A stretch of DNA of 21,194 nucleotides, taken from a virus. The notes beneath the pieces were generated by a model, which was not told where the DNA came from, made no database searches, and saw only the letters and a list, made by a program, of their open reading frames with translations. Positions within the stretch are counted from its first letter, which is position 1; every line of letters begins with the position of its first letter. A program made the position numbers and the translations under genes. Of this stretch, positions 1 to 20,733 are shown in pieces. The stretch lies in IMG/VR virus record IMGVR_UViG_3300042907_000401, positions 1 through 21,194 of that record, one strand, 5' to 3'.

Positions 1-3000
1 CACCAACACTCAAACTACCACCAGAAGTAATTCCTCCTCCCGCAGAAATTCCTCCACCCACACGCAGCGCAGCCGATGCAGTTATGCTTCCAACCACATC
101 AAGAGCCTGTGTTGGTCCAGATATTCCGATGCCTACTCTGTTATTTGCTGAGTCTACAGTAAGTACCGTGGTATCTCCATTATTACTAAAGATAAATCCC
201 TTTTGTGTTGCACTAATAGGTCTAATTCGGAGGAAATCTGGATGATCCGAATCTTCATATAGTCGCAATCCAACCTGACTGCTTGTACCAGCACTCAATC
301 GAAGTGCTTCCGATTGTGCTATCGTGGATCCTACTATTTCCAATTTAGCATTTGTTAGTGTTGTTGTTCCAATACCAACACTACCACCAATACCAACATT
401 GCCACCCGACTCGATTCGCATTCTTTCCGTGAGAGTACCACTGAGAGAAGTAGAAATTGTTAAATGTCCAGAGCGAGACGCACTACCATCAGTTAATAAT
501 GTTTTTATTTCTGCAACTGGACGGCGATCACTACTTTGGTTGTGTCCAAATCGTAATACAGCACCAGTATTCTCTGTGGCAGTTGTGTTTTCAAGATTAA
601 GAACAGGACTACCTTGAGATATATTTAACAAAGAATTGGGATTAGTTGTACCAATACCAACATTGGCAGCAAAACTTGCTGTAGCACCCACATTCAGCGC
701 ACCACCAATTCCTGCACCACCAGCAACTCTGAGTGCACCCGAACCCGTAGAAGTGGATGTGCTTGTGTCGGTTATGTTAACAAAAGTGCTTGCAGTAAAT
801 CCACCCCCGATCAATTTCATACCACCACTACCGACATCTAGTCTAGCAGCAGTAATTCCTCCACCCACATGGAGCGCACCAGCAATTCCTGCACCACCTG
901 CCACCACTAGTGTACCTGAAGTAATATTGGTAGATGCGATTATAGCAGAGGCGTTCACTACACCATTAGATGCAACTGAAACATGAGGATTCAGTGAGGC
1001 AGTTGCACCTACTGCTGATGTATGTAATCCAATACTGCCTTCAGGGGAGTTGAATCGAACAAATGCTTGTGCTTGTCCAGTGAATTGTCGGGTTTCCGCT
1101 TCACTTCCTGGACTTGCATTCAAATTAGCACCAATACCGCTACCATACAAAGTTGCGTTTGGTTCACTAGCCCACATCAGCAGTGCCGCACCTGCGGTAT
1201 TACCGTTTTGACCAAAATTTGTACCTTGTCCAGAGGCAACTAGTTGTATTTTAGTATTATTATGCACTCCTATTACACGAATCATATTACCGTAAGAACT
1301 AGTAGAAGTATAATTTCTAGGAGAACCAAGATTCAAATTACCAGCAGAAGTAATTCCTCCTCCCGCAGAGATTCCTAAACCCACATTAAGCGTACCCGCA
1401 ATTCCCGCACCACCCGCCACCACCAGTGAACCCGAACCCGTAGAAGTGGATGTGGTATTAAAAGAGGCGTTCAGACTCTTAGCCTGAAATGTTCCTGTGC
1501 TTAGAATATTACCAGAGTTTATAGTACCAGTAGTGTTAATTGCTCCTGATCCCAAATCTAGGCTACCCGCAGCAGTAATGCCTCCACCCACATAGAGATT
1601 TTTACCAATTCCCGCACCACCAACTACCACTAGATCACCACTACTTACAGAACTGGATTGGTTGCCACCACTGGCACCCAAAGTAGTAGCCGAAAATGAT
1701 CCAGTGAGAATACTTCCACTTTTCATTACTCCAGTTCCCAAATCAAGTCTAGCCGCAGTGATTCCTCCACCAACAGTAAGCGCACCACCCATAGAGATGC
1801 CACCCGCAGTAGTAATACCACCCACATAGAGGGCACCCTGAATTCCCACACCACCCAATACTCGGAGCGCACCTGTAATTGTAGAACTAGATGCGGCTGC
1901 ACTATCCACACGCGTTTCACCAGTGACATTCAGTGTACCAGCAATACTCTGACCATCAGCACCAACATGAAGACCCTTAGCCCCTATTCCACCCACCACA
2001 GTAAAGGCGGCAACAGTGGGAGAAGTGGCAGTAGTGTCATTCGTTACTCGTGTTAACCCGCTAAAGGTAATACCACCAGCAGCACTAATCCCACCACCAA
2101 CGGTAAGGTTTTTAGCAATTCCCGCACCGCCACCAAGAGTGAGTCCGCCTGTGGTTGTGGTTGTGGAGTCTGTAGTGGCAGGAATGTTCATCCCACCAGA
2201 ACTGTTCATGGTGATTGAGGTTCCTTGCAAGGAACCAGAACGAAATATATAATCTTTTGCTCGGAAATCAAGAGTAGTAGTAAATAAATTGGTAGTTCGA
2301 TTTAATGCTTGAATAAAACTCACATCTGTCTGATGTCCAGGTTGAAATTCAAGTGTGTCGTTACCTTGAGACACAACAAATGTATGCTGTGGGGTGGTTG
2401 TTCCAATACCTAATTTTCCATCATTAGTCAACCGCATCTGCTCTACACCACTAGTTCCATCGTTGGTCTTGAACACCAATGGTTCGCCGCTGCCACCTGG
2501 ACGCAGTGTGCCGTCCCGCAGATCACCCACAAGCAGACTGGTGTACGGAATGTCGATGCCGTCAATAATGGCAGCGCGTGTGTACGGCGAGGCTTTAATG
2601 ATGTACCGCACCACGGTGTAGGGGGGCAGATTGGGAAGCAATCCACCAGTAGTAGTTGCCGAAGTTACAAATGCAGCACTTCCCGCACCAACACCTGTAT
2701 TCGCAACAGTGGATTCTTGTCCACCCGCAGATCCAAGTGAATAGATGCCAGAGATGGCAGAATTTGTTGTATTTACTGTAGAGTCGTCATCAGTATCAGT
2801 GATTGCTCCTGTGTTTACACCAAGCGCAACTCGCCCACGCAGGTCTGGAGTATTAAAGTGGGTAATAGAAACCGCAGAGATGATCGTGAACGGATCTTCA
2901 TCGTCCTGAGCAAGACCAGTAGTAAACACAGTATTGTTTACAACAAAGTTTTTATTACCAGGACTATAAACAGGCACAGTCTGAACAGTAATAGTTGTTC

Positions 3001-3697
3001 CAGCAATCGCAATTATTTTTGCACGAACAGTAGTTGCATCGGTGCTCCCCTGTCTGATAAATCTACCGATACTTGATGGGGGAACTGGAGTTTGGGTGGT
3101 CAACACAGCAACATGACCGTATGCAGGAACACGATCACCACTGCTGTACTGCAACTTTGAGTACAGATACGGATACGCTCCCACCGCATACGAATTGCCG
3201 TTGCACTCCAACCACGAATCGGGAATTACCGAACCCGCAAACGGAACCACTGTGCCCACAGGCTGAATCTCGTCAATCGCAACAGTGGACGAACCGCCGA
3301 TCTGTGTACCAAGATAATTGGTAACAATATAACCTGATCCGTTTGTGATCTTTGTGAGTACAGGCTTTATAACACTTCCAATTGCACTTGGAGGAGAAGA
3401 AGTTAATCCACCCGCAGTAGTCGAATCCAAGAACAGCACAGGAGCAGATACGCCAGATAGTACAGACAGGTTAATATAACCAGAATAAGTTAAATCAAAA
3501 GTGTTAAAAGACGCAGCACTAACAACACCAGCAACTTCCGAATTTTCTGCACTATCGGCTTGTGCCTTTACCCATGTGCCACTAGGAATATCATACCGAA
3601 TAGCGTCTCCTTCTGAAAAAGAATTTGCTAGTGAAAAACTTTCCACAATGCTTCGTGGGGTGCTGGTTCCGCCTTTTAGAAGTAGTGATGATCCCAT
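1..3697 (-). CDS. Giant tail-collar fibre protein, C-terminus beyond window
   Basis: From the ATG at 3695-3697 the minus strand stays open for 1232 codons to the left edge, so only a minimum size is known. Domains in order: residues 20-130, a copy of the module found twice in the upstream gene (GTWVKAQADSAENSEVAGVV); 145-369, a phage tail-collar domain (PVGTVVPFAGSVIPDSWLEC, FNTPDLRGRVALGVN, GGQES, NLPPYTVVRYIIKA) with an insertion of about 90 residues; about 430, LGIGTTTPQ; 517-1005, seven copies of a Gly-rich motif such as SGALRVAGGAGIGGALNVG; and 1012-1200, blocks such as ERMRIESGGNVGIG and VGIGTTNPN. Such blocks commonly precede a C-terminal S74-type intramolecular chaperone, which may lie beyond the edge. 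It is probably a trimeric receptor-binding fibre. Confidence 0.88.
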   Translation of the reverse strand, partial: MGSSLLLKGGTSTPRSIVESFSLANSFSEGDAIRYDIPSGTWVKAQADSAENSEVAGVVSAASFNTFDLTYSGYINLSVLSGVSAPVLFLDSTTAGGLTSSPPSAIGSVIKPVLTKITNGSGYIVTNYLGTQIGGSSTVAIDEIQPVGTVVPFAGSVIPDSWLECNGNSYAVGAYPYLYSKLQYSSGDRVPAYGHVAVLTTQTPVPPSSIGRFIRQGSTDATTVRAKIIAIAGTTITVQTVPVYSPGNKNFVVNNTVFTTGLAQDDEDPFTIISAVSITHFNTPDLRGRVALGVNTGAITDTDDDSTVNTTNSAISGIYSLGSAGGQESTVANTGVGAGSAAFVTSATTTGGLLPNLPPYTVVRYIIKASPYTRAAIIDGIDIPYTSLLVGDLRDGTLRPGGSGEPLVFKTNDGTSGVEQMRLTNDGKLGIGTTTPQHTFVVSQGNDTLEFQPGHQTDVSFIQALNRTTNLFTTTLDFRAKDYIFRSGSLQGTSITMNSSGGMNIPATTDSTTTTTGGLTLGGGAGIAKNLTVGGGISAAGGITFSGLTRVTNDTTATSPTVAAFTVVGGIGAKGLHVGADGQSIAGTLNVTGETRVDSAAASSSTITGALRVLGGVGIQGALYVGGITTAGGISMGGALTVGGGITAARLDLGTGVMKSGSILTGSFSATTLGASGGNQSSSVSSGDLVVVGGAGIGKNLYVGGGITAAGSLDLGSGAINTTGTINSGNILSTGTFQAKSLNASFNTTSTSTGSGSLVVAGGAGIAGTLNVGLGISAGGGITSAGNLNLGSPRNYTSTSSYGNMIRVIGVHNNTKIQLVASGQGTNFGQNGNTAGAALLMWASEPNATLYGSGIGANLNASPGSEAETRQFTGQAQAFVRFNSPEGSIGLHTSAVGATASLNPHVSVASNGVVNASAIIASTNITSGTLVVAGGAGIAGALHVGGGITAARLDVGSGGMKLIGGGFTASTFVNITDTSTSTSTGSGALRVAGGAGIGGALNVGATASFAANVGIGTTNPNSLLNISQGSPVLNLENTTATENTGAVLRFGHNQSSDRRPVAEIKTLLTDGSASRSGHLTISTSLSGTLTERMRIESGGNVGIGGSVGIGTTTLTNAKLEIVGSTIAQSEALRLSAGTSSQVGLRLYEDSDHPDFLRIRPISATQKGFIFSNNGDTTVLTVDSANNRVGIGISGPTQALDVVGSITASAALRVGGGISAGGGITSGGSLSVG
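22..46. repeat. Exact 25-base direct repeat B, copy 1
   Basis: This is identical to 1345-1369 over 25 bases and codes for SAGGGITS in the giant fibre. The spacing of 1323 bases is a multiple of three. Confidence 0.88.
737..761. repeat. Exact 25-base direct repeat A, copy 1
   Basis: This is identical to 1430-1454 over 25 bases and codes for the Ser/Thr/Gly spacer TSTSTGSG just before a Gly-rich unit. The copies are 693 bases apart, a multiple of three, so recombination between them would keep frame. Confidence 0.9.
1345..1369. repeat. Exact 25-base direct repeat B, copy 2
   Basis: This is the second copy of the 25-base repeat at 22-46, in the same reading phase. Confidence 0.88.
1430..1454. 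repeat. Exact 25-base direct repeat A, copy 2
   Basis: This is the second copy of the 25-base repeat at 737-761, in the same phase of the fibre frame. Confidence 0.9.
3308..3640 (-). repeat. Fibre beta module, copy 3
   Basis: Residues about 20-130 of the giant fibre: SEGDAIRYDI, WVKAQADSAENSEVAGVV, SAPVLFLDSTTAGGLTS and AIGSVIKPVLTKI. It is the N-terminal module of this protein and paralogous to the two modules of the preceding gene. Confidence 0.7.
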
Positions 3698-3706
3698 TTG
3701 GTATTG

Positions 3707-3711
3707 CCTTT
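3707..3711 (-). promoter_or_regulatory. Shine-Dalgarno for the giant fibre gene
   Basis: The minus strand reads TAAAGG, with the TAA stop of the 644-residue gene overlapping AAAGG nine bases before the ATG at 3697. This fixes the start of the giant fibre and indicates coupling to the upstream fibre-type gene. Confidence 0.65.
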
Positions 3712-5644
3712 AAGAAATTCTCTGACAGAGATGATATGCTGTTGCGCCTGTGGAGTTACGATCAATTGCCCGACCACGAGTTTTCCATGTTCCATTCATT
3801 GTGACACCTGTGGTGCTGGCACCAAGATAGATGCCGTACTCTCCGCTCAAGCCACCGCTGTTGTGGTAGTAGAGGGTGACTCCCACATTTGGGGATAGCG
3901 TTGAGCCTGTTGTACCCATCACAATGCTGCCTGTAGGCAGATCAATATAATCAGCAGAAGCACCCGTGTACCCTGTGAACGAGGACTGCCCTGAGTTGTT
4001 TACATCACCACGATATGAAATAATATGACCACTGGTTGCCGTGGTGCTGAAAAGAAGTGGTTTCCTAACTTGTCCCACAAGAGTAGGAGGAGTATTAGTA
4101 ATAGATGGAGTGGAACTTTCAAAGGCTTGAGTATTACCAGCAGATCCAGCACTCAAGAAGTATTGAGTACCCGCAACCATATTCCCTGGAGTACCAGAAT
4201 TGCTTGCAGTTATTCCTAGAGAAGTTGCATCAAAAAATCCAGTTGTGGTAATGCTAAACTTAGAGTTAACAGCAGAAGTATCAATGGGGGTTACATCAGT
4301 AACAATACCAACCACTTCCGCTTGTGCTTCCGTGTCAGCCTGTGCCTTTACATAGATTCCGTCAGCATAAGTGGCAGATGTGTATCCAGGAGGAGGAATG
4401 CCTCCTGCATACGCATAAGAAAGTCCAGCAGAGCCAGCAATCCATCGAACTGCATCTCCAACTTGGAATTTGTTGATCTGCACTATAGATCTTCCAACTG
4501 TAGAAGCAGCAGTAATTATTGCGTCTTCCGCAAGAAGTCCACCAGTAAATGGAATCACTATTGCAGCACTAGCACCAGTAGCAATCAGAACAGCCTTGTG
4601 TACTGTTCCTACAGCCCTGGATGGTGTGGTGCTTAGTTTTCCCGCGCTTGTAGACAGGTAGTATACTGCACCAGTTATCAGATTAGATCCTGATGGCAAG
4701 GCATTGGTAAAGTTTCCAAATATCTCACCAATAAAAGTAACTTCAAATGTGTTTGCGTCCACACGATTAGACACAACACCAACAACTTCAGCCTTGTCCA
4801 CATCAGTACAATCTGCTGCAAGATAACTTCCGTTGTTGTACACATACACAGGAGTGCCAAAAGACAGTCCGTGAGCCGTTTGAGTAACCCGCTTACGGTT
4901 TACACCATTTCGAATATTTACAAACGGTTGTGCGCCGTATGTTGTGCCGTTGAGAACTTCCATGAAAACCGTTGCACCTGTTGATGAGTAACGGCTGAAT
5001 TCAATTGCTCGGTTGGTGGTTGCTCCTGCTGCTCCACCCGTGTTTGTCAGACTAATATTAAGTCCGTGATCCGTGGTTGATCCACCGTCAAGACGAATGG
5101 CAAGACCGTGAACAGGCAGGGTTCCACCGCCAGCAGGGTACAACCCGCTTGTGGCTCCGCTAAAGCCAATGTGTGTGTTTGCACGCCACACACCCGTGAC
5201 ACCGTGAACTGCAAAATTTTGCCAGAGCCACTCTGCTGTTCCACCACTTCCAAGATTCAAGATCAAGCCACCACCACCAGCGGCAGATGCTCCTGCGGCA
5301 GATGCACCAGCAAGATCGCCAAGCACAATGTTGTAGTCATCAATGGTAACCGTCTGTGCGTTCATGGTCACAGTGGAACCGTTAAAAGTAACTACACCAC
5401 CAAAGTTAATGTCGCCAGTAAAAGTGTGACCCGTGGTAATGGTTTCAAGCAAGGCAACAGAAAGAGTTCCACCCGTGGTTGTTGTAATGGAAATACTTCC
5501 AGTACTGATACCCTCATACACCTTCAGTTTGTTTAGTTTGTAGACGGCAGTATTGGTGATGTCACGCCATGTGTTAAAAGTATCCCCAAGTGCGACTTGT
5601 GGGATCGGATAGGTGTTTTCATCTGGTCCTGTATATGATGCCAT
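3710..5644 (-). CDS. Fibre-type virion structural protein with two repeated beta modules
   Basis: A 644-residue protein. Residues 15-45 (PQVALGDTFNTWRDITNTAV and YKLNKLKVYEG) look like the N-terminal attachment segment recurrent in marine phage fibre proteins. Residues 94-165 carry MNAQTVTIDDYNIVLGDLAG, then GGGGLILNLGSGGTAEWLWQ, a pattern I recall from cyanophage structural proteins. Two copies of a module follow (about 249-367 and 388-545), with the core KAEVVGVVSNRVDANTF / QAEVVGIVTDV and later VYYLSTSAGKLS / QYFLSAGSAG; the next gene carries a third copy. The C-terminus (GTWKTRGRAIDRNSTGATAY and HLCQRIS) is a short tail like those of phage fibre tips. Role is most likely a tail fibre or baseplate decoration; the exact place is unknown. 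Its stop overlaps the Shine-Dalgarno of the next gene. Confidence 0.8.
   Translation of the reverse strand: MASYTGPDENTYPIPQVALGDTFNTWRDITNTAVYKLNKLKVYEGISTGSISITTTTGGTLSVALLETITTGHTFTGDINFGGVVTFNGSTVTMNAQTVTIDDYNIVLGDLAGASAAGASAAGGGGLILNLGSGGTAEWLWQNFAVHGVTGVWRANTHIGFSGATSGLYPAGGGTLPVHGLAIRLDGGSTTDHGLNISLTNTGGAAGATTNRAIEFSRYSSTGATVFMEVLNGTTYGAQPFVNIRNGVNRKRVTQTAHGLSFGTPVYVYNNGSYLAADCTDVDKAEVVGVVSNRVDANTFEVTFIGEIFGNFTNALPSGSNLITGAVYYLSTSAGKLSTTPSRAVGTVHKAVLIATGASAAIVIPFTGGLLAEDAIITAASTVGRSIVQINKFQVGDAVRWIAGSAGLSYAYAGGIPPPGYTSATYADGIYVKAQADTEAQAEVVGIVTDVTPIDTSAVNSKFSITTTGFFDATSLGITASNSGTPGNMVAGTQYFLSAGSAGNTQAFESSTPSITNTPPTLVGQVRKPLLFSTTATSGHIISYRGDVNNSGQSSFTGYTGASADYIDLPTGSIVMGTTGSTLSPNVGVTLYYHNSGGLSGEYGIYLGASTTGVTMNGTWKTRGRAIDRNSTGATAYHLCQRIS
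4010..4483 (-). repeat. Fibre beta module, copy 2
   Basis: Residues about 388-545 of the 644-residue protein: FQVGDAVRWI, YVKAQADTEAQAEVVGIV, GTQYFLSAGSAG and TLVGQVRKPLLF. It is closest to copy 3 (both have VKAQAD) and longer than copy 1. Confidence 0.7.
4544..4900 (-). repeat. Fibre beta module, copy 1
   Basis: Residues about 249-367 of the 644-residue protein. The module runs from a GTPVYV strand through DKAEVVGVVSNRVDANTF, then GAVYYLSTSAGKLSTTPSRA and VGTVHKAVLIATG. It resembles the copies at 4010-4483 and 3308-3640. Confidence 0.7.
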
Positions 5645-5647
5645 GTC

Positions 5648-5842
5648 TTATTCGCTCTGCTGTGTGAGGTTTGATACAGATATGAGTTGCTGTACTTGCT
5701 GCTTCAGAGTATTTATCTCTGCTTTCAGTGCTTCTACATCTTCTGCTAGAGTCTTTTTTTGCATGAAAGCATCAATTGTCTGTGCATCTGCCAGTAGTAC
5801 TGCACCCGTGGCACTATCGCGGATGTACCTTACTCCACTCAT
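5648..5842 (-). CDS. Small coiled-coil protein between structural genes
   Basis: A 64-residue ORF that fits exactly between its neighbours: its ATG directly follows the TAA of the DUF4815-like gene, and its TAA is three bases before the next ATG. There is no strong Shine-Dalgarno, so it probably depends on coupled translation. The N-terminal half (SGVRYIRDSATGAVLLADAQ) looks like a small beta-hairpin. Residues about 30-60 (TLAEDVEALKAEINTLKQQV and on) form a clear heptad with leucine/isoleucine/valine repeats, predicting a short dimeric or trimeric coiled coil. It could trimerise with the fibre next door or act as a small assembly factor; no function is known to me. Exact packing between structural genes argues that it is real. 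Confidence 0.75.
   Translation of the reverse strand: MSGVRYIRDSATGAVLLADAQTIDAFMQKKTLAEDVEALKAEINTLKQQVQQLISVSNLTQQSE
5710..5719 (-). promoter_or_regulatory. Possible T4-type late promoter element
   Basis: The minus strand reads GAGATAAATA, one mismatch from the T4 late consensus TATAAATA (GATAAATA here), 65 bases before the 644-residue gene. It lies inside the coiled-coil ORF and also encodes EIN in a heptad, so it may be coincidence. Confidence 0.2.
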
Positions 5843-8800
5843 TTATTGAATGAAACTCACTGTACGGATGTTTCGTGCAGCAGGTGTTTTGAAATATGTA
5901 GAGTTTTGTGCCGTGGAAGTCATCACAACCTGTATCTGATACGAGGTGAACGCTCCTGAAGGTACAGCAACACGGAAGGCGGCTTCTCGGAAATCAATTT
6001 CCGAATTACTAGTAAATGAAGGGCTGATTTGTGGCATGAGGAGGAATCCCTTGGAGAATATATCGGTTTCTCCACTCAGACAGTATCGGTAATTCACAGC
6101 AATACCAGATCCTGTTGGAATATTTGCGTCTACAAACACAGCAATTCCGTTTGATGCGGTGGATTGCGGCAACTCCACTACTCGCGAAACATATTTTGAT
6201 GTTGGAGTGCTACTAGTGGAGTACATGGTGACACTAGCAGCGAACAGCGCAGAAATATCAATCACAGGAGACACTGATGTGTTTGCTCCTCTGCGTAGAG
6301 AATATTGCAGATCTGGATTACTTGAAATAATAGTCTTCAAATATACAGATTCGTTGTTCAAGAAGTTTTTACCATCAACGGTGCGATCAAGGGCGCAACT
6401 GCTTGGAATAATTTCTGGAGCGTAGAACTTTAAAATTTGAGCATTGGTGCAATTACTGATTCCACTGTATTTAATATTACCAGTTGAAACAAACGAACAC
6501 TGATTCAAGGTGAACATAAGATCTGTGGTGTTGTTTTGTACTGTTGAACCAATTCCTTGTGGTGTAAACAAGGTTCCAACCAACTGATTGTTTCCTGCGC
6601 GACCCGCAACAGCCGAATTATTGTTGATGGTATTAATCGCACTCTCAGCAGCAAACAATTCGTATTTGTCGCTGTTTGCCAAAATGCAGATAGCGTATTC
6701 ACCTGGTTCAAGATACACGGGACTGCTAAAGGTGAAATTTGTTGCTATTGGCAATGCAGAATTAGCGATTACATTTACTGAGTTTTTAACAACTGTGCTG
6801 AAAGGCATTACCACAGAAGGTGATGGATATCCAGAAACCGTTGGACGAATCTGAACCGTTACTGGTAATGTGGAATCCTTTGCAGCAAAATAAAGGTCTG
6901 CGCTACTAAGGAATATGCCATCAGGGTTTGCTTTCTTATCAACCAAGAATGTTTGTGATACAGGATCGCTCCAATGGTTGTTCTCAACAGAATCAATGTC
7001 TCGATTGAATGGATCCTTTGCAATACTTTCACTTGCAGCAGTTTGACGGCGCAGTTCAGGTGGACGAGTAGAATACGAACCAGAATCGCGTTGCTCTAAA
7101 AGACCCGTGCAGTAGTACACTGCTTCTGCTGCAATAGTGGAATTAGCCGTAACAGCAGAATCAGCAATACGAACAGTTCTTTGTCCTGCCAAGAATGTAC
7201 CAGCAGAAATTCCAAAAGATACGGTGCATGAGCCGTAAGTATCAGTGCTAATACCACTCTTGACTACTTCTCCGTCAAAATACAGAGAGAGATTTGTGGA
7301 ATTGGGTTTCAATCCGTCAACAGTTGCAGTCACGGTATTGAGTGGAATATAAGGAACCACACTGCGATCAATTACCCGCGAACCAATGCGGTGCTTGATA
7401 CGATTCTTTAGTTGACGAGCACTAATAAAATTGCTGTTCTTCTGATCAATGCTTTGCACCTTACGAGAAACACCTACTCGAATGCTACCAGAGTTGACCG
7501 ATGGAATTGCAGATGTGGATGCCACATGGGGAAGTTCAACAATACGCTTCTGTATATCGTCTTGTTCGTCTTCAACCTGATCTATGCCTGTCCATATACT
7601 TTCCCACTCATTCCACTGCGTACCAAAGCCACGCTTGTTGTTTGCATTGGATGAAATCCAATTGTCATTTTCTGAAAGTGCATTGGTCTTAACAGCAGGA
7701 CGATATCCTGTGTCGTAGAATGGTTCAACAGAAGTAGACAATTTCATAAACCCAAGCCAATTAACCGTGTTGGACGGATTAATCTTGATGCTCTTTGTAT
7801 ACTGCTTGTTTTCAATATAAGCAGGAGTAGTGTAATCAAGAGTAATCAATCCATCTGAAGAAACCACGGTATTGATTGTGATTGGAGTATTAATTGAAAT
7901 TTCTTGAGTTGTAAAGAATGGACGCAATTCCCCACGCTCAAAATCAATAGAACACGAATTAGAGTAATCGCACACATCCGAAACGGAGTGTCCATAGAAC
8001 TCATCTGAGAAGATAGAAGTCTTTAAAGGTTCGGCAGCAGCACAAGTTCCACGAAGTGATCTTGCTTCTATTTCAGATTCCGACAGGGAGAGTTTAGCAA
8101 ACACTTCAACTTCATCCACTCGCTTCTGAATCTTACCAATGTCTGCCATAGTGAATCGCTTGGTGTCTACGGGAGTAATCACTACATCACTTTCGTTGTG
8201 TGTGTACGCAGGAACAGTTACGGTAGCAAGCACAAGAGCATCAGCAGGATCAGGTGGAGCCGAAGGCGACAGGTCAGGAGTTCCTCCTACAAAGAAGAAG
8301 AGTGCAGACCCGTCTTCAGGATCAGCCTTAACGCACAATTTATCAATGCGTGGCAGATAGTGATTGTATGAAGCACTAGTAAACGATGGAACCACAACAT
8401 CAGTAGCACCATACGGTTTCAACATTGGTGTGGTTGCGGTAAGTCCAGAATGACGGAAGTCCAAGCAGTTTGCCAAAGACACCGTTTTGCCTGTACGCGG
8501 ATTGGTGAACAGTGGAATCTGAGCATACGGAAACGCAGAACCATCTGAAGAAAAGTATGAATGCTTGCCGATGAATGGTGCAGCAGACAATCCACCGTGA
8601 ACAAAATATGAATAGGTAACAAAAAGGTTCGCGTTGGTTAATGAAGAAGTATATACAGGCTTGGATGCCGAACTTTCTTTAATATACAGGCGAGAATTTT
8701 CGTAGTGAGTTTCTCGCTGACCATCATCCAACTCAAAATCATCGGTATAATCTATTGCTGCACTAGTTTGATTAACAACCGAAGCAATAGCGTACACATC

Positions 8801-10750
8801 ACGATTAGGAATAGTGAAGTATTTACGACCACCTTCTGATGTGCTCAAATTGGAAGTAAAATTTACCGTAGTTGTTGTCGAAGTTTTGGTTCTGTATGTT
8901 GTATTATTACCAATAGTGGGAGTATACACCACAGGAACCATTGCTCGCACTTGTTGAGCAGTGAATCCTGCTGGCACAGAGGAAGCCGAAGCCACTACAG
9001 TCATATTTCCTGAAGACACAGTAACATTTGCAGTACTAGTACTAGGAGTGAATGCAGTGGATGTGCTGTTTATAAAAGATATTTGACTGGCTGCTAGTGG
9101 TGTAGTAGGAAAATTAAACACACCATCACTACCAGTAGCAATAGTTTCACTAAATTGTCCCTTGGTAATTGTATAAGTTGTTTGATTTGTGGTTGGAGTA
9201 TTATAAGATGGAGAGAAAAGACTACCAATGAGCCTACATGGAATAGACAGAGAAGAAACTTCGTTAACCGCATATCCTGGCTGCAATTCGTAAACCAGAG
9301 ATGAATTGTCTGTGTTTGATGCAGAGAATCCCGAAGTGGTTTGTGGAGTAAAGGATCCAATGGTAAATCCTGTGGTATTACTGTAGATAAACCCTGTCTT
9401 GCCACTTGCAATAGAACCACTCAACCCGTACACATACAACCGATAGTGGTTTCCTGTGAATCCACCAGGACCAGATTGTTGAGGAGTAGGAATTGCACCA
9501 TGAACATGACCAGTAGCAACGGTAGCCGTATTGTCGGCGTTTCGGAATTGAACCTGTGCAGAGCCAGCACTAATAGTGGTTAGATTGGTAGCAAATGTTT
9601 CACCAAATCCAGATGCCGTATTGCCCATGCATACGCCAATAAAGTTTCCCGTGCTAAACACAAAAATACCCGATTCAGGTTGAACCGTTCGTGATTTACT
9701 AAAGGGAACCGTAATCGGATGCTGATTTTCAACATCATATCCAAGCACATACGCCTTGCCTTCACCAACAGACATATTTAATTGTGTGGTAGAATAGTCT
9801 TTAATCGTAAGATCAAACGGACGAACCGTATAGGATCCCGACTCATCATAGGTACGAAGAGCAAGTGCCTTCTGAATTTCTCCGTAGGTGATTCGCTCAA
9901 TCTTCTTGGTAACTTTTCCGCCTTCAAACCGAAGCAGTTCAACAAAGTCATCAGGAGTTTCGCTCAACTCAGCCTGAGCAAGCGAAAGAATAACCTTATA
10001 GCGATCTGCTCCAGGAGCATTGTAATTGTAGGATCCAATTGCAGGATCCCGCAGGGTGGGGTTTTCCTGTTCCGTAACATTGTCTCGACTAATGGCAAAT
10101 CCAATCTTCTTGGATAGTACGGAGAATGCGGTAAAATTCAGATCACGATATCCTGTTCTTGCGATATATGGAGTGAATTGCTGTGTATCGGTTCGAACAA
10201 AAAACCCGTCCACATAGAAAATACCATCAGAAACCGTAATCAGTTTGCAGTTACCTTTACCAAACGAATCAGAAACAACACTCAAACCAGAAACGGTGAA
10301 TAAATCCTTGGTCAAGTTAAAGGTACTAGTAAACGAAGTTCCCGAAACAAAATCCACAACAAGAATTAAATACCCATCTGTATTCACATCAGGAGCAATA
10401 TAGTGAACCACCGTTGCTTGTGTTGTGTCTGTGGTATTGGTGGGTGTAAGAATTCCGCCAACAAGGGTGGAGTAGTCGGTGACTCCCGCAAGAGGAGTAC
10501 CAACACCAGTAGCAACCATCAAAAATGAAGAATTGCGAACACTAATACCACCACCAATAATGCGAGATCCGTCCTTGAACAAATGATCGCCGATTCGGGA
10601 CAGTTGATCCTGTAGGATGGACTGCAATTGCGTGGCTTCACGGGCTTGCAGAGCGTATCCTGGCTTGAACAGAACACGCAAAAACCCGTTGTCCGCAGAA
10701 AAATCATCGTAGTACGGACTGATATTGAAGATGCTAGGATCGTATGCCAT
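5843..10750 (-). CDS. Large DUF4815-like baseplate/tail-fibre structural protein
   Basis: A 1635-residue protein. The N-terminus (YYDDFSADNGFLRVLFKPGY, then ALQAREATQLQSILQDQL and HLFKDGSRIIGGGISV, residues 13-70) is the pattern I recall for DUF4815 proteins of T4-like marine phages, usually annotated as tail-fibre or virion structural proteins. The centre is long, Ser/Thr/Asn-rich and beta-prone. Near 1147 is LKPNSTNLSLYFDGEVV. At about 1255-1360 is a conserved-looking block (DPVSQTFLVDKKANPDGIFL, VTVQIRPTVSGYPSPSVVMP, YLEPGEYAICILANSDKYEL). It ends in ARNIRTVSFIQ. It occupies the position after gp8 where T4 has gp9 and gp10, so a role in attaching peripheral baseplate parts or fibres is plausible (inference). 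The start has TAAGAGGA ending four bases upstream, overlapping the gp8 stop. The TAA abuts the next ATG. Confidence 0.85.
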   Translation of the reverse strand: MAYDPSIFNISPYYDDFSADNGFLRVLFKPGYALQAREATQLQSILQDQLSRIGDHLFKDGSRIIGGGISVRNSSFLMVATGVGTPLAGVTDYSTLVGGILTPTNTTDTTQATVVHYIAPDVNTDGYLILVVDFVSGTSFTSTFNLTKDLFTVSGLSVVSDSFGKGNCKLITVSDGIFYVDGFFVRTDTQQFTPYIARTGYRDLNFTAFSVLSKKIGFAISRDNVTEQENPTLRDPAIGSYNYNAPGADRYKVILSLAQAELSETPDDFVELLRFEGGKVTKKIERITYGEIQKALALRTYDESGSYTVRPFDLTIKDYSTTQLNMSVGEGKAYVLGYDVENQHPITVPFSKSRTVQPESGIFVFSTGNFIGVCMGNTASGFGETFATNLTTISAGSAQVQFRNADNTATVATGHVHGAIPTPQQSGPGGFTGNHYRLYVYGLSGSIASGKTGFIYSNTTGFTIGSFTPQTTSGFSASNTDNSSLVYELQPGYAVNEVSSLSIPCRLIGSLFSPSYNTPTTNQTTYTITKGQFSETIATGSDGVFNFPTTPLAASQISFINSTSTAFTPSTSTANVTVSSGNMTVVASASSVPAGFTAQQVRAMVPVVYTPTIGNNTTYRTKTSTTTTVNFTSNLSTSEGGRKYFTIPNRDVYAIASVVNQTSAAIDYTDDFELDDGQRETHYENSRLYIKESSASKPVYTSSLTNANLFVTYSYFVHGGLSAAPFIGKHSYFSSDGSAFPYAQIPLFTNPRTGKTVSLANCLDFRHSGLTATTPMLKPYGATDVVVPSFTSASYNHYLPRIDKLCVKADPEDGSALFFFVGGTPDLSPSAPPDPADALVLATVTVPAYTHNESDVVITPVDTKRFTMADIGKIQKRVDEVEVFAKLSLSESEIEARSLRGTCAAAEPLKTSIFSDEFYGHSVSDVCDYSNSCSIDFERGELRPFFTTQEISINTPITINTVVSSDGLITLDYTTPAYIENKQYTKSIKINPSNTVNWLGFMKLSTSVEPFYDTGYRPAVKTNALSENDNWISSNANNKRGFGTQWNEWESIWTGIDQVEDEQDDIQKRIVELPHVASTSAIPSVNSGSIRVGVSRKVQSIDQKNSNFISARQLKNRIKHRIGSRVIDRSVVPYIPLNTVTATVDGLKPNSTNLSLYFDGEVVKSGISTDTYGSCTVSFGISAGTFLAGQRTVRIADSAVTANSTIAAEAVYYCTGLLEQRDSGSYSTRPPELRRQTAASESIAKDPFNRDIDSVENNHWSDPVSQTFLVDKKANPDGIFLSSADLYFAAKDSTLPVTVQIRPTVSGYPSPSVVMPFSTVVKNSVNVIANSALPIATNFTFSSPVYLEPGEYAICILANSDKYELFAAESAINTINNNSAVAGRAGNNQLVGTLFTPQGIGSTVQNNTTDLMFTLNQCSFVSTGNIKYSGISNCTNAQILKFYAPEIIPSSCALDRTVDGKNFLNNESVYLKTIISSNPDLQYSLRRGANTSVSPVIDISALFAASVTMYSTSSTPTSKYVSRVVELPQSTASNGIAVFVDANIPTGSGIAVNYRYCLSGETDIFSKGFLLMPQISPSFTSNSEIDFREAAFRVAVPSGAFTSYQIQVVMTSTAQNSTYFKTPAARNIRTVSFIQ

Positions 10751-10759
10751 ATGTTCCTC

Positions 10760-13111
10760 TTAGAAGCCCAATCGAACTCTAAATTCTTCCTGTTGACCAA
10801 CAGTTCTTTGTATAGGTCTTACATTGTCTATGTATAAGATTTCGCCCGAAGTTCTGTCGATCTCTGGTAGGTCTACATTGGTCACAACGAACGCACCAAG
10901 CGTGGAACCCGACAACCCATCCACAGCAACACTCTTGAAAGAACCCACAACATTGGTCAGATGGAGTTTTCCATAGGAATTATTGATAAATTCCCAATGG
11001 TACACCTGACCACTGGCGTAGTTTCCGTAGGTTCCCGTGACTCCTTGAGTCACCAAGTCTCCATTAGAAAACGAGTTCTGAGTGAGTGAAGCGGAAGTGG
11101 TGTCTACAATACCCACCGCAGAATTCAAACTAGTACCTAGTTCTACAACATGAACACCCCTATATGCAGGAGTACTGTCTAGATCAAAATACGCTTGTCC
11201 TGCTTCCACAATCTTATACAGTTTTTGATTGCCACCACTACTCAAGAATGTGGCAGTATCAGAGGAGGCAACTGTATCAGTAACCCATACAGACTCTCCG
11301 TATGATGGAGCCACAGAAGAAATAGTACCAGTAACACCAGAAAGCAAACCCACAATAGGAAGACCCGCCTGATTAATAAAGTTTCCACTACTAGTAAGAC
11401 GAACACCTAATTGAGTTCCGCTTGTATAGAGAACCCGTCCTTGAGTGGTTATATCAAATCCATACGAAATTCCTGCTTGCAGAACTGTGGGCAGAACTGT
11501 TGCGGCAGGAATAATCTGCTCTACGGTTTCTCCAACTTGGAAATCCACAGACGGATCCGCAGTAAGCGTGAGTACATAATCATTTATGCGGTCTTGCTTG
11601 GTAATAAATCTTCCGCTGGCGTTCAGGGTTTTAAGAGTAATTTGTGGAGTATTTGTTGATTTCACGCCAATAACTTTAGCAGAGGAATATGTTTCGGTTC
11701 CAATTATAATATTTGCTTCTCCTGAACTAAAATCAGAAGAAAGCGCAGTACCGCTAGTACTAATAAGAGAGATGTCTCGATAGTACAAGTCTTCCCTTCC
11801 TGCCGCAATTCCGCTTCCGTCTCCAAGCAAAGGATTCTTGATTATTCCAAACTGTCTATACGATCCACCGCCTATAATTTTGGCAGAATCTTCTTCTGTG
11901 ATATTTACAATGATAAGAATATCTTTAATATTCAGTTCTTTCAAGATATTACTGCCGTGTCCTCCCTTGGGAGACAGAACCGCAGTCAGGGTTGGGTGAT
12001 TCGTGACTGCTGATTTAGGACTTGCCACTTCAACAAGTGCAGCAGAGTAATTGCGTCCACCGTTCACAACAGTAACAGCAGAAATTCCTCTACTGGCGTT
12101 CATTGTCGGAAAAGCATACGCTCCACTGCCGTTTCCTACAATTTTAATGTACGGTACAATCTCAACAGAGGCAATCTTTCCGTTTCCAGATGGAGTAATA
12201 GTGAAATCCACAACATCGTTTTGAAGGGTAAATGTAAAACTATTGGCGGTAGACGCTGCACCTGTAATAATTGCGTAGTTGTTTACTTCAGTTGCATTCG
12301 CAGTACTGTAGTCCACACGCAACACATACCCGATATATTTTGAAATATCAACACCAGAAAAATTCAATAGTCCTCTAGCACCATCATCTGTAGTAGTTAC
12401 TGTATTCGTTACAGGGTCAAATCCTGTAACAGTGATTGTATATGGATTGTTTCCACCAACTAGACTATTAGTGATAGTGTTCGGGTAAAAACCAGCAGAA
12501 GCACCCGATGAGTTTACCAAACCAATTCGGGTGATTGAAGCATTCACTGCACTAATCTGCGTGTTGTATTGGCTGCTAGTTTCCGTATCTGTGCTGGTTG
12601 TAGCAAAATCTACAGGAATATAATCCGTTAACTGATACGGAAGATCTCCTTCTTTTACAGTGGCAATATATTGCCAAGTATATCCATCAGTTGAACGAAA
12701 CGAAGAAGTCAACACACCATTTGGTTTAATAGTGGAGGCGACTCCACCGCTGTTGCCCAAGCACTTATAGATGTTGTTCTCGTCTGTAACCACATAGAAA
12801 ATCTTTGGGTTGGTATCGTCAAACAGGGCATCAGTGTCGCTGTACTGATCGTACTTTGTACCACCACCCCACTCGTATCGAGGCAAGGCAAAAATAATGT
12901 TCTGTGGGTTGAGTTTCTTGTAGCCAATAATGTCATTCATTACCTGATACTCAGATCCCACGCTGTCAACATAGGCAGTTGGATTTGGTTCAGTACTCCA
13001 AGCAGTACTCTTACTAATAAAAAAGAAGTACTGATTATCGTTGCGTTCCAAATCCGCCAAAAAACTTTCGGCGTATGAGCGTTGAATGGATGCCTTTAGG
13101 TAACTAGCCAT
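10760..13111 (-). CDS. 8: Baseplate wedge protein gp8 homologue, enlarged
   Basis: This 783-residue protein keeps both ends of T4 gp8 (334 residues). The N-terminus has YFFFISKSTAW, IIFALPRYEWGGGTKYDQ, KIFYVVTDENNIYKCLGN and DGYTWQYIATV followed by YIPVDF (to about 170), matching T4 gp8's path from IFITFGRSEPW through RRDWG, VYRCLD and DGYVWEYLF. The C-terminus, LPEIDRTSGEILYIDNVRPI, matches T4 RHSGEMIYMENRPPI, and both end in a short beta strand. Between them are about 450 extra residues of beta-rich sequence, including SPKGGHGSNILKEL at about 376-389. In T4, gp8 dimers sit on the wedge and contact gp7, gp6 and gp10. The start has AAGGGGA six bases upstream, overlapping the previous stop. 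Confidence 0.9.
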   Translation of the reverse strand: MASYLKASIQRSYAESFLADLERNDNQYFFFISKSTAWSTEPNPTAYVDSVGSEYQVMNDIIGYKKLNPQNIIFALPRYEWGGGTKYDQYSDTDALFDDTNPKIFYVVTDENNIYKCLGNSGGVASTIKPNGVLTSSFRSTDGYTWQYIATVKEGDLPYQLTDYIPVDFATTSTDTETSSQYNTQISAVNASITRIGLVNSSGASAGFYPNTITNSLVGGNNPYTITVTGFDPVTNTVTTTDDGARGLLNFSGVDISKYIGYVLRVDYSTANATEVNNYAIITGAASTANSFTFTLQNDVVDFTITPSGNGKIASVEIVPYIKIVGNGSGAYAFPTMNASRGISAVTVVNGGRNYSAALVEVASPKSAVTNHPTLTAVLSPKGGHGSNILKELNIKDILIIVNITEEDSAKIIGGGSYRQFGIIKNPLLGDGSGIAAGREDLYYRDISLISTSGTALSSDFSSGEANIIIGTETYSSAKVIGVKSTNTPQITLKTLNASGRFITKQDRINDYVLTLTADPSVDFQVGETVEQIIPAATVLPTVLQAGISYGFDITTQGRVLYTSGTQLGVRLTSSGNFINQAGLPIVGLLSGVTGTISSVAPSYGESVWVTDTVASSDTATFLSSGGNQKLYKIVEAGQAYFDLDSTPAYRGVHVVELGTSLNSAVGIVDTTSASLTQNSFSNGDLVTQGVTGTYGNYASGQVYHWEFINNSYGKLHLTNVVGSFKSVAVDGLSGSTLGAFVVTNVDLPEIDRTSGEILYIDNVRPIQRTVGQQEEFRVRLGF

Positions 13112-13656: not shown

Positions 13657-16600
13657 TTATACTCCGAATCTGTTGCGAGTGGAGTTGAAATTTTGCTGTA
13701 TTTCTGCTTTTGTTAAGGCGCGATCATACACACGAACCATTGCAATACTACTATTAAACTCGTAGTCTGTACCCATATAGGTGTAGTGATCTGTTGGGTA
13801 GTTTGCACGATTACCAATGTTTACTGTTGATAGCGAATACCTTTCATTTCCAGCATATGTTCCTGCGGTTACACCTGTTGCGTTTGCATAGATTTCATAC
13901 CGTGTATTATTTACTGTTGCGTTATAAGTAGACACAAAAACCAAGTGTATTGGTTTGCCAATAAAGGTTCCCCAACTAGACGGAACATTCCATGTGGTAA
14001 GTGTTTGCAGACCCGAAGTAGTTGGAGAAGTATTCTGCGACCACCGCACTTGAGTACTTCCAACAATACCAAAATATGGAAGACCACCAGCACCACAGAA
14101 CATAGCGACATCACCACTACTTGGTTGGGGTGTTATCCACACCTCCCATGTCTTGTTTCCAATATTACCAATATTAGAAAATACAGCACCCGATGTAATA
14201 ATCGCGTGCGACTTGCCGTTGAACGCTAACTGACCACCGTTTACAGAACTGTATTGTGGTTTTCCTATAACCGAACTAATAGAACCAGTTGGACTCAAAT
14301 CGTATACAGTATTTTGAGTATTGTTCAGCAACTCCTCGATGCTTGGTTCAGTGCCGTCTATCAAGTCAATACGAGGACGCAGGAATTGCACTTCTGTTCC
14401 TGGAGTACTACTGCCGTATAGGAATACTCGCATAGCAAGTTGTCCCAAAGTTCCGTCAAAAATATAATCTACACTCGTAGAGCCAGAGGATGTGGCGTAA
14501 GGAGTACTACCACCAGAAACGGTGTAGTATCCACTTGCTGCATCATTAGCACCAATTGCAGTTCCTAATGGATGCACATGACCAACCACAAGAACCCAAG
14601 TATTTTGTTTACCTGTGTAGGCATTACTGCTTGGTCCGTCTGCTGCGAAATACGGATTTGTATTTACTACTCCTGTTGATTTGGTTTTCAATCCAGTTGA
14701 TCTTGGACCAAAGTACACATCACCGCTACCAAGAACTTTTCGATTTACCCAAACAGAAAAACGATACTTTTTAGTCATATCAACAGCAATAGATGTGGTA
14801 TCGAACCCTCCATTGGAGTTATATAACGCAGTAGTAGCGTTGGAGGAATGATTTTTTCCCCTCCATCCTAGTTCAACATTTCCCCAAGGATTAGTTAACC
14901 GTTCCACTGAATTGGCGTTTGCTGTTCCCAATTTATTCCACGGAAACGGGTAACTAGAATTGGTTCGTGTGGCGGTGCCAGCAATATCACTCACCGTGCC
15001 ATACGGAAGAAGTTGTACGCGACCAATTCGATATTTTACACCTGGTACTAAATTAGTCAAACCAACCAGTGTGGCTGTTGAACTAGTGCCAGTAGGTTCA
15101 GTTTTTGTGAGAGTAACTTTATACCATCCACCCCCAATATCATCAAATCCTGTTGCTGCTGCTGCATAGGGGTTACTGCTTGCTGTGTAGATATACACAC
15201 CAGGACGAGTTATAAATCCACCATCATCCCTACGAATAGTGGCAGTGAATGTCCACGCATTGGCTGTTAGTAAATTCTCCCATGCTAAAGGAGTACCAGG
15301 ATAATTAAGATATAGATTTCCACTTGTACCAGTTGTTGCTTCAAAAACTTCATCAGTATCAAGTCCCGCACCAGATTGTGTAACAAGCACTACTGAATCG
15401 GGGGGAGAACCATCTCGTCCCCACATTGATGCCGTGAGCGGAGCAAGCACATTGATTGGAGTTGGAGTCATCTGATACTCACGAAGAATATCAGTACTGA
15501 TTCCGTCTTTGTAAGAACCAATAGACGCAGTTTGTCCCGCGTCAAAAGCGTAAATAAGGTTTTTAGAAACAAGCCACTCGTTTCCTGATGGTGGACTAAT
15601 GGAAGCAATCTGTCTGCCTGTTACTCTAGACTTATTCAACCCCTCATCACCATTCAAGAACACCTCAATCTTGTTTGAAGAGTCTCGAACGGCTTCTCCA
15701 ATACAAACTCCCAAACACGCCCCCGAAACATGGGGATCGTAAACAATAGAATTCTGTCCAGCAGCAGTATTGTCTCCACAAGGACGGAATCCAAAAGCAC
15801 CAGCAGGAGGAAGTGATGCACCAGGATACATGAGTTTTCCGTTTGGAAGAATCGTATAGTAACTACTGTTCTGCTGCGATAGAGTTCTGTCCTGCTGATT
15901 ATACGAACGACTGAACAGCACAGAGTCAAATCGCAAAGATGGAGTTGCAGACAAGTCACAATTTGTATTACGAGAAGCAAGCAGTCCGTATCCGTAACTC
16001 AACCCATCAATAGTTGATTTATACACAACAAATATATCTGCGTCATCAGTAACGGTTAGAGGTTTGGTAAGGTACATATGCTGACCAGTAAGAACTGCCG
16101 CAGCACTGCTGCCTGGTCCTGTGGTGTATCCAAGACCAACCACCGAACCAAAAGTTACTCCTGCGTAAGTTGAAGCAGGAGAAAACACTAGTCCTCCGTT
16201 AAACGAAACTCCCGTAACTCCACCGTACCCTGCTGTTTGCAGAGTGGGGCGAAGTTTGTCTAGCGTTACTCCTGCGTAATTTCGTACATCAATACCAGCG
16301 GATGCTTGGAATGTGGGATTTACGGGAGTTCCTTTATACGAGAGTTCAGTAATGGTTACAGAGTGACCTGTTCTACTAGCATCGTAGACCGCATCAAGAA
16401 AGAATGTGGAGTCTGCATAAAAACTCAGTCCGTATCCCTTATAATACCTATTTTTTTCAACACCATTTCTTCTCCAAACCATATACGGCTCAACATATTC
16501 CACTTCAAACACTGAGTTGTCGTATGCGGTTAAGTTTGCTCCCGCCGCTTCTTGTGTGTTCCTAAGAACATTCCCTGCGGAGTCGTATTGGATATAGAGA

Positions 16601-18514: not shown

Positions 18515-20326
18515 TTATCCCTTTAGATTTTGCTTGCGAGATACTTGTGACTGCAACGAGATACTAACTGAATCAGTATAACCTCGACTCATGCGAAGAA
18601 TCTTGTTCTCGAATACAAAGATGTCGGTATTATTTGGTTGCACCGTAATCGTGAAGAGAGGAGACACAGAAGTGGGGGCAAATGCAGTATTAAATTTCAC
18701 TGTTCCGTTTGCGTAGTCCACTACACCAATATTCGGGTATACCGTGCTTTGCGATCCGTTTGCATCAGTGGTAACAAGATTGATTTTGCCGTAGCCGTCA
18801 TCAGTTGCGTACACATCATTCACAATTACACCATTGGTATTTTTATGTGATATGGTGCTTGATCCCAAGATAGGGGAGTGTCCTTCATGGGGATGCAGAA
18901 GTGGATTCTTAAAATCAATAGCGAATCCCTTAGCCGCAACAAGTTTGGCAAGGTTAACTGTTTTACGAAGACGAACCGTTGTCTGATTACTAAGAATACT
19001 AGCACTCACCGAGTTCATGCCTTGAGACAATTGAGATAGGTAGAAGTTTGCACCAAATGTTTCAAGTGCAGTAGCCGAATAGGTAAAGGCGTATGCAACC
19101 AGTAGTGCCTTGATGGTTCCTGATCCAATTGAAGCCAAGTTTGGATCGTAGGTAACAATGGAATCAATCACCAAGTCAATATAATCAGCATCCACAATTT
19201 CGGGAGTAACAGTAACAACTGAACGATTCTGCCGCAGTACTCGCGCAAGACTAACTTTTTCATCAGTAGTAAGAGCCGATCCCGACTTGGGCTTTACAGC
19301 AATAAACACCTTGCCGTACTGTGGAGGCACAACAGTTTCTCCACCGTAAACATAAACAGAATCCGCATTGGGATACTCTTTAATTACTGCGGCGGTGTAG
19401 TCGTCTTCTGTTACTGCACGATTCTGTGACTTATAGAATCGAGGAGCCAAGAACTTGATACGGGAAACACTTTCCTCTAGTGCGCCACCTGCGGACACAG
19501 TATTAACCGTGATTGCACCAAGACCGCTAACCGTACTACTGAATGTAGATATTCCGTTTGCATCATCGGCATTGGTTTCCATGTACTCCACAATAACAAT
19601 ACTGCCAGATGCTGGTTTCATTCCAAGAAAGTCGTCTCCAAAGAACAGTTCGTACATACCTGTTTCTTTTTCCTGCAAGAAAAATACCTTGGATGTGGGA
19701 GTCAAATCAATATACGAATCAGCGTATGACCACACATCCTCAATGCCTGTGCTGTCAGCAGCAGAAGCCTTGACACGAACCTTGATGGTGCTTGTATCAA
19801 TCTTATCATTGGGGATAAGAAGAACCGATCCCAATTTTTTATTTGAATTGTACACATAACTCATGCGCCGAAGAGTGCCTTCGTATACTTCAATAGATGA
19901 AAACTTTTCAGCAGATGCGTACACCGTATCAAGCAGAATGAATCGGTACTGTGTTCCCGCAGGATTCACCCCCGTGAATTCTGTACCACGAGACAGGTAG
20001 GTGCTTGCTCCTGCTCCTGCCGCCACAACACTCAGAACAGCCTTAGAAGCACGGCGTGAAGACGGAACATATCCCAATGCCTTTGCATGGGAAACCACCG
20101 ATGGACGCAGTACAGCACTATCCAAGAACATCTCATTAGCAACCATGTTTGTATGGAAAGCCTGATAGTGGGTGTTGTAGGCAAGCACATCAAGTACAGT
20201 GCTGAGAACCGATCCATCAAAGTTGTAGTCCTTCAGCGTGTCCTGTGACTGCAAGAAAGTCTGTAGCGAAGCCTTTGCCTCATCAAAGTCAAGACCAACA
20301 ATATTAAAACTGTTCGAATTAGACAT
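18515..20326 (-). CDS. 6: Baseplate wedge protein gp6 (Baseplate_J-like)
   Basis: At 603 residues it is close to T4 gp6 (660), the protein whose dimers close the inner ring of the baseplate and hold neighbouring wedges together. The N-terminus has the gp6 signature: DYNFDGSVLSTVLDVLAYNT at about residues 33-52, then VANEMFLDSAVLR and KALGYVPSSRRA. Further on are ELFFGDDF, EYMETNADDANG (about 240-250) and AVTEDDYTAAVIKEYPNA (about 300), typical of the baseplate-J/gp6 fold, then VFIAVKPKSG. The ATG has AAAGGG seven bases upstream, inside gp25. Its last codons (CTAAAGGGATAAG) supply the Shine-Dalgarno for the gp7 homologue one base downstream. Confidence 0.93.
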   Translation of the reverse strand: MSNSNSFNIVGLDFDEAKASLQTFLQSQDTLKDYNFDGSVLSTVLDVLAYNTHYQAFHTNMVANEMFLDSAVLRPSVVSHAKALGYVPSSRRASKAVLSVVAAGAGASTYLSRGTEFTGVNPAGTQYRFILLDTVYASAEKFSSIEVYEGTLRRMSYVYNSNKKLGSVLLIPNDKIDTSTIKVRVKASAADSTGIEDVWSYADSYIDLTPTSKVFFLQEKETGMYELFFGDDFLGMKPASGSIVIVEYMETNADDANGISTFSSTVSGLGAITVNTVSAGGALEESVSRIKFLAPRFYKSQNRAVTEDDYTAAVIKEYPNADSVYVYGGETVVPPQYGKVFIAVKPKSGSALTTDEKVSLARVLRQNRSVVTVTPEIVDADYIDLVIDSIVTYDPNLASIGSGTIKALLVAYAFTYSATALETFGANFYLSQLSQGMNSVSASILSNQTTVRLRKTVNLAKLVAAKGFAIDFKNPLLHPHEGHSPILGSSTISHKNTNGVIVNDVYATDDGYGKINLVTTDANGSQSTVYPNIGVVDYANGTVKFNTAFAPTSVSPLFTITVQPNNTDIFVFENKILRMSRGYTDSVSISLQSQVSRKQNLKG

Positions 20327-20733
20327 CAGCGCACCCTTTCTAGGACAACCGTGATTCTATCTTGTTTGCCAACGGCTTGTATGGCGTATTCCACCACAAC
20401 CGTATAGTAGTTTTCGTTTGGACTTGCGGTTACATCCACCACCACCTGACCCACTCGTGGCTCGTGATTGCGGATAGTCATCAGAATTCTGTCGTGAATT
20501 TCCATTGTGGTAATGGCATCAATGGGTTCAAACAGCAGTGAGCGCAGCGATCCACCAATGGTGGGCTGAAACAACCGTTCACCGAAAGCGGTGGACATCA
20601 AATTGCGTATAGATGTGCGGACAGCCAAATCATCCCTGATGGTGAGCAGATCACCTGTCTTGGGATTCTTTGTAAAGGTGGGATCTATATCGGTAAATAT
20701 AGGTTTCCCGCTGCCTGTGATCTGTAGTGCCAT
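20326..20733 (-). CDS. 25: Baseplate wedge protein gp25 (GPW/gp25 family)
   Basis: This 135-residue protein has the size and layout of T4 gp25 and of the gpW/gp25 lysozyme-like fold family, which forms part of the inner baseplate wedge and contacts the sheath-initiating region. Seen directly: the N-terminal segment DIDPTFTKNPKTGDLL, the helix AVRTSIRNLMSTAFGERLFQ, the segment GGSLRSLLFEP, and the family hallmark EPR within NHEPRV at about residues 89-94. Its start overlaps the upstream stop as TAATG and lacks a strong Shine-Dalgarno, so coupling is likely. Its TGA shares one base with the gp6 ATG (TGATG). The family has a lysozyme-like fold but is structural; nothing here indicates enzymatic activity. 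Confidence 0.93.
   Translation of the reverse strand: MALQITGSGKPIFTDIDPTFTKNPKTGDLLTIRDDLAVRTSIRNLMSTAFGERLFQPTIGGSLRSLLFEPIDAITTMEIHDRILMTIRNHEPRVGQVVVDVTASPNENYYTVVVEYAIQAVGKQDRITVVLERVR

Follow-up and report, generated by a model that had tools for sequence, protein, structure and literature searches.

A probably exchangeable tail-fibre tip, with or without an S74 chaperone domain, in near-identical T4-like viruses

How does a tail fibre end when its gene runs off the edge of the sequenced DNA? The question is raised by a 21,194-base stretch of viral DNA (the window), in which a long fibre frame is still open at base 1. A first-pass annotation of this DNA had described a giant fibre with a collar domain and a Gly-rich shaft, only partly contained in the window, and had predicted from motif blocks near the edge that a self-cleaving S74 intramolecular chaperone would follow beyond base 1. 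Since the window is the entire virus record (IMG/VR IMGVR_UViG_3300042907_000401), the continuation has to be read from relatives, among them the contigs L003 (3300034105_001972, 39,177 bases) and L002 (3300042541_001886). The part of the gene inside the window is laid out as follows.

2..3697, minus strand: tail-fibre gene, first 1232 codons, open at the window end; complete at 1481 aa in L003 and 1534 aa in L002
3146..3256, minus strand: phage tail Collar domain, residues 148-184 (Pfam PF07484, E 3.7e-9)
2..2440, minus strand: Gly-rich repetitive shaft, residues 420-1232, with repeats such as TSTSTGSGSLVVAGGAGIAGTLNVG (from sequence composition)
992..1324, minus strand: PRNYT...SAVG domain, with a second copy at 75.5% DNA identity over 400 aligned bases

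The earlier description of this visible part holds up. The ORF analysis places an ATG at 3697, followed by a frame of 1232 codons that stays open through to the window end; the chance of so long a stop-free run is about 2e-26 (assuming equal codon use), and homologues of the fibre in IMG/VR loci also support the frame as coding. PF07484 is its sole Pfam match, at 36.8 bits against a cut-off of 24, and Gly makes up 18.2% of shaft residues 420-1232 vs 11.2% of those ahead of the shaft. The motif blocks on which the prediction had been built are all located near the window end (ERMRIESGGNVGIG at 386-427, VGIGISGP at 113-136 and ALDVVGSIT at 80-106), and the second copy of the PRNYT...SAVG domain starts inside the window and runs past its end in L002 and L003. 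Relatives of the fibre were found in seven IMG/VR loci. Six of these encode a protein whose best segment is 64-100% identical; in the seventh, L008, 87 residues matched at 30%. Against 50,697 INPHARED phage records, neither megablast with the window nor tblastn with the fibre protein gave a match, and among the genome contigs 58 stretches matched a pattern, none of them a relative. An exact search with 40 bases at the window end found only the L002 and L003 contigs.

The gene order around the fibre is that of a T4-like structural region, with the following neighbours.

3710..5644, minus strand: 644-aa gene between VrlC and the fibre, without Pfam or PHROG match
5843..10750, minus strand: VrlC-like gene, 1635 aa, with DUF4815; its 3' part lies inside a second L002/L003 mosaic patch
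18515..20326, minus strand: baseplate wedge gene (phrog_219), with the best matches among isolates listed in Methylophilales phage Melnitz (37%) and Pelagibacter phage HTVC008M (36%)
20326-20733 and 10760-13111, together with 18515-20326: baseplate wedge genes by PHROG matches

Among the isolates listed, the best matches of the VrlC-like protein are VrlC of the Pelagibacter phages HTVC008M and Mosig, at ~30% identity. The succession of VrlC, 644-aa gene and fibre in a T4-like baseplate region is that of a host recognition cluster, which in pelagimyophages comprises VrlC with fibre genes close by (PMC7029224).

The closest continuation of the window is provided by L003, which matches it entirely and colinearly with 4 mismatches in 21,194 bases (one in 14,492 bases, the other three in a stretch of 7,227 bases that takes in the remainder). 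In this contig the fibre runs for 249 codons beyond the window end and then stops, confirming that the window holds only part of the gene. The leftward extension that the first-pass annotation had proposed as a check was thus made through relatives, and it does not lead to a chaperone domain: a Pfam search of the L003 fibre found only Collar and no S74 domain, a PF13884 search of the whole 39,177-base record gave no match, and a 13-sequence S74 model, run against the L003 fibre with filters off, returned nothing up to E 10. A further contig, L012 (3300042907_001165), picks up 20 bases beyond where the window ends and has the same tip as L003, with 44 differences in 10,375 bases between the two; a PF13884 search of its record likewise gave no match. 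The L003 tip is followed by a 391-aa gene. Searched for close relatives, this gene found only its own two contigs, and the search with the L003 tip returned the same two.

A different end is seen in L002, in which one mismatch was counted against the last 5,197 bases of the window. Its fibre ends in S74 (PF13884, E 1.4e-10), and so does that of L007 (E 1.6e-10), with scores of 41.7 and 41.5 bits against a curated cut-off of 22. Both carry the sequence SDIRSKEN, at 1437 in L002 and 1565 in L007, which contains the Ser-x4-Lys dyad of this domain; in L002 this is Ser1437/Lys1442, with 98 residues from the Ser to the C-terminus. The spacing equals that of the dyads given for T5 (Ser1264/Lys1269) and MyRF (S587/K592) (PMC4690869 and PMC8326128, respectively). 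The helper residues described there for T5 pb1, Arg at Ser-14 and Asp at Ser-25 (PMC4690869), are not in place in L002, where Ala and Ile are read at these positions; their role may fall to other residues in L002 and L007. Among solved structures, the L002 tip is matched best by 6f45_A, the distal subunit of a long tail fibre (E 0.005). L007 bears the same S74 end on a fibre that is 64% identical: in the last 354 coding bases the two differ at 5 positions and in 0 residues, whereas the contigs as a whole share 85.6% DNA identity over 14 kb. As the S74 ends are far closer than the rest of the gene, a recent exchange is suggested.

The predicted S74 end therefore fails, probably, for the window virus, as the tips of L003 and L012 are without detectable S74, and is borne out in its sibling L002. 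The C-terminus of the window fibre lies outside the sequenced stretch, so its tip is assigned from these relatives; as identical shafts are seen with different tips, not even a relative four mismatches away fixes it. On this comparison of sequences, the window's own fibre most likely ends in an S74-free tip.

Do the shaft motifs tell the two ends apart? S74 occurs in two of the five distinct complete C-termini of the fibre family (L002, L003, L004, L007 and L015, drawn from six contigs with L012 repeating L003, and with L015 lacking the fibre start). This count leaves aside L005 and L006, which both stop within the fibre gene, as well as the distant loci L008 and L077-L079, which are 30-37% identical in parts of the first 420 residues; in the L008 record a PF13884 search found none. 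L004 and L015 have two further tips, both without S74, of which that of L004 matches the tail-fibre PHROG phrog_11355 (E 9.4e-7). Motif counts are equal in L003, without S74, and L002, with it; all four motif types occur in L004, and two of the four in the incomplete L015. Motifs that had been taken as forerunners of S74 thus occur with and without it and do not predict an S74 end within this one fibre family. Together with a best continuation that is S74-free, this makes the original prediction reasonable, though not reliable.

The difference between the two ends is confined to a block. Between about L003:9000 and 14,856 the L002 and L003 sequences are the same, with no mismatch from the fibre start to the block. 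They separate some 360 bases beyond the window end and stay different through the end of the fibre and the next gene; around the point where the following gene begins they meet again, 98.6% identical across 219 bases. Within the block the tips are still homologous to about residue 1433 (57 of 100 aligned columns identical) and part at the S74 cleavage region, and the same genes flank both tip types. The gene after the fibre has 391 aa in L003 and 339 aa in L007, is found as two overlapping pieces (143 and 223 aa) in L002, and is missing in L004 and L015. A near-identical L003 without S74 and a sister L002 with S74 on the same shaft make the tip look swappable. A second mosaic patch, mostly in VrlC, covers about 5490-9490 of the window (L003 5000-9000); there L002 is ~8% different from both L003 and the window, and is 99.3% identical to L006 where L003 is 92.1%, with long mismatch-free stretches on either side. 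The tip block and the VrlC patch thus suggest recombination near the fibre twice in one near-identical pair. Downstream of the tip block, a 1039-aa gene (L003 16509-19628) is without a Pfam match and resembles a tail-protein PHROG only weakly; it is present in five of the contigs compared, and its start also in L002.

These data can be read in other ways. The window virus might itself carry the S74 self-cleaving chaperone, given the single mismatch that separates the end of the window from L002 and the share of S74 ends in the family; however, S74 is absent from the contig that agrees with the window throughout, also across the part of VrlC in which L002 diverges, and from L012 just past the window end, and we consider an S74 end unlikely here. 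The contrast between the tips could instead have been produced in assembly, with one of them misjoined to the shaft in one contig. All contigs compared are metagenomic and strain chimeras are possible, the shared shaft is joined to an S74 tip in L002 only, and close to the window end, where the window and L012 break off 20 bases apart, there is an exact internal repeat of 25 bases. We examined this repeat as the cause of the tip difference and rejected it, since the tips part well beyond it; moreover, each tip is seen twice, in contigs whose metagenome numbers differ (L003 and L012 for one, L002 and L007 for the other), and the same next gene follows either kind. A misjoin is, in our judgement, quite improbable.

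The gene might also encode a short tail fibre of the T4 gp12 type rather than the long, host-range fibre. The Collar domain would fit such a protein, and there is a weak match to the short tail fibre family phrog_4591 (E 2e-4, 38 residues), which covers only profile positions 15-54 of 429 instead of the full length. T4 gp12 is, however, far shorter than the window fibre, whose collar stands near the N-terminus and is followed by more than 1000 residues of shaft and a variable tip, and among the PHROG families matched by the C-terminus of L002 are several of long tail fibre distal subunits; a gp12-type protein is accordingly doubtful. We think it likely, as one joint reading, that the window holds about the first five-sixths of the receptor-binding tail fibre of a T4-like myovirus and that this fibre ends in an S74-free, exchangeable tip. 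Likewise, the sequences compared probably represent an S74-free and an S74 tip on one and the same shaft, in the exchangeable fibre tip of a host-recognition region after VrlC. The fibre of the window would be trimeric.

The S74 tip of L002 is followed not by the 391-aa gene but by a different, adhesin-like partner gene. In L002 this gene (15400-16424) is split into two overlapping frames, while it is intact (339 aa) in L007 (15790-16809); the split could be either a real inactivation or an assembly error. The N-terminal ~55 residues of the L007 partner are common to many phage proteins with a variable C-terminus, as judged from the best 80 of its 299 relatives, which represent 79 distinct loci (including L081-L158), all of which were used. 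An S74-ending frame lies directly upstream of the partner domain in 32 of the 79 loci, or 27 of 74 when five previously examined contigs are taken out, with a gap of -10 to +27 bases from the end of the S74 frame to the start of the partner-domain match; the S74 model for these upstream counts was built from 13 of the 53 S74 loci. The other 47 loci have no S74 directly upstream, 5 of them having it elsewhere in the locus. In the reverse direction, 50 of the 53 S74 loci have at least 300 bases downstream, and the partner domain is found just downstream in 12 of these and not in the other 38 (an earlier look had taken in 20 of the 53, two without a frame). Both sets contain near-duplicate viruses. 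From 27 of 74 and 12 of 50, the link between S74 and the partner is common, not general.

Among phage records, 48 contain the partner domain. Six were inspected: a S74 fibre stands directly before the domain in phiM9, RHph_N34, S-CREM2 and Stenotrophomonas phage BUCTxx99, and none is annotated before it in Lentibacter phage ICBM1 and Vibrio phage F86. The partner-domain protein of RHph_N34 is annotated as a 'putative tail fiber adhesin'. No such domain was found in the 391-aa neighbour of L003 (E 0.24). For two partner proteins a Pfam scan gave no match and PHROGs only weak matches to families of unknown function, and structure models were too poor to use (mean pLDDT 37.3 and 29.7). Across the PHROG and Pfam scans generally, weak head decoration PHROG matches and a below-cut-off OpuAC match were not taken as functional. 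We read the partner-domain proteins as putative fibre-tip or cap proteins.

We suggest that the fibre is built from a conserved base with the collar, a repetitive shaft and a tip that can be exchanged. Where this tip has S74, the chaperone would trimerise it and then cut itself off at Ser1437, which would leave the domain preceding it as the mature fibre end; the partner protein may sit on this cleaved end. In the S74-free form, the tip would fold without S74, perhaps aided by the 391-aa neighbour. A swap of the whole block, by recombination in the shared flanks, would change the host range. We put forward more tentatively a wider reading, in which the same shaft in near-identical viruses is finished, as one block, either by a self-cleaving S74 plus an adhesin with a docking domain or by an S74-free tip plus an unrelated partner, so that the chaperone would be a property of the tip and not of the shaft, and the proteins with the ~55-residue domain would form a widespread family capping the end exposed by cleavage.

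The feature is a modular receptor-binding fibre of an ordinary kind in a variable host-recognition region, and its natural tip pair is unusually clean. Tip exchange as a form of phage variation is known already; modestly new are the presence or absence of S74 on one identical shaft, on which we found no paper in the open literature (most subscription journals lie outside that scope), and the pairing of S74 with an adhesin-like gene. Having the same shaft and base with different ends, the pair offers a ready-made test of what an S74 chaperone is needed for. The S74-linked N-terminal domain, seen at 27 of the 74 further loci, could help in recognising some phage genes of unknown function as likely to encode fibre-tip proteins.

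Several known systems resemble parts of this arrangement. The S74 end of L002, with its Ser and +5 Lys, is like those of the L-shaped tail fibre pb1 of T5 and the K1F endosialidase, whereas the domain is missing from the closest relative of the window with a complete fibre; L002 further differs from pb1 in having other residues at the places of the Arg/Asp helpers, and its cleavage is a prediction. The Alteromonas phages A5 and V22 share a module of fibre and chaperone, so that fibre and helper gene are shared together between phages as here; there (PMC10579305) the chaperone is a separate protein, while in the present viruses it forms the C-terminus of the fibre itself, and the partner gene resembles an adhesin. 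In the T-even gp37/gp38 pair (adhesin gp38 of T2 and S16; PMC10175313), a fibre-tip gene is likewise followed by a small partner gene, and the best structure match of the L002 tip, 6f45_A, points the same way; the partner proteins here differ in having no Pfam match and only the weak PHROG matches. Rhizobium phage RHph_N34 and Sinorhizobium phage phiM9 come close in gene order, with VrlC (phiM9) or an adsorption-associated tail protein (RHph_N34), a small gene, an S74 fibre and a partner-domain protein, but their fibres are shorter (596-597 aa) and the S-x4-K-x-N pattern was not found in that of RHph_N34. The host recognition cluster of pelagimyophages and cyanomyophages (PMC7029224) shares with the window a T4-like structural region in which VrlC is closely followed by fibre genes; here, VrlC and one baseplate protein are only about 30-37% identical to those of isolates, and a defined tip block varies between near-identical viruses.
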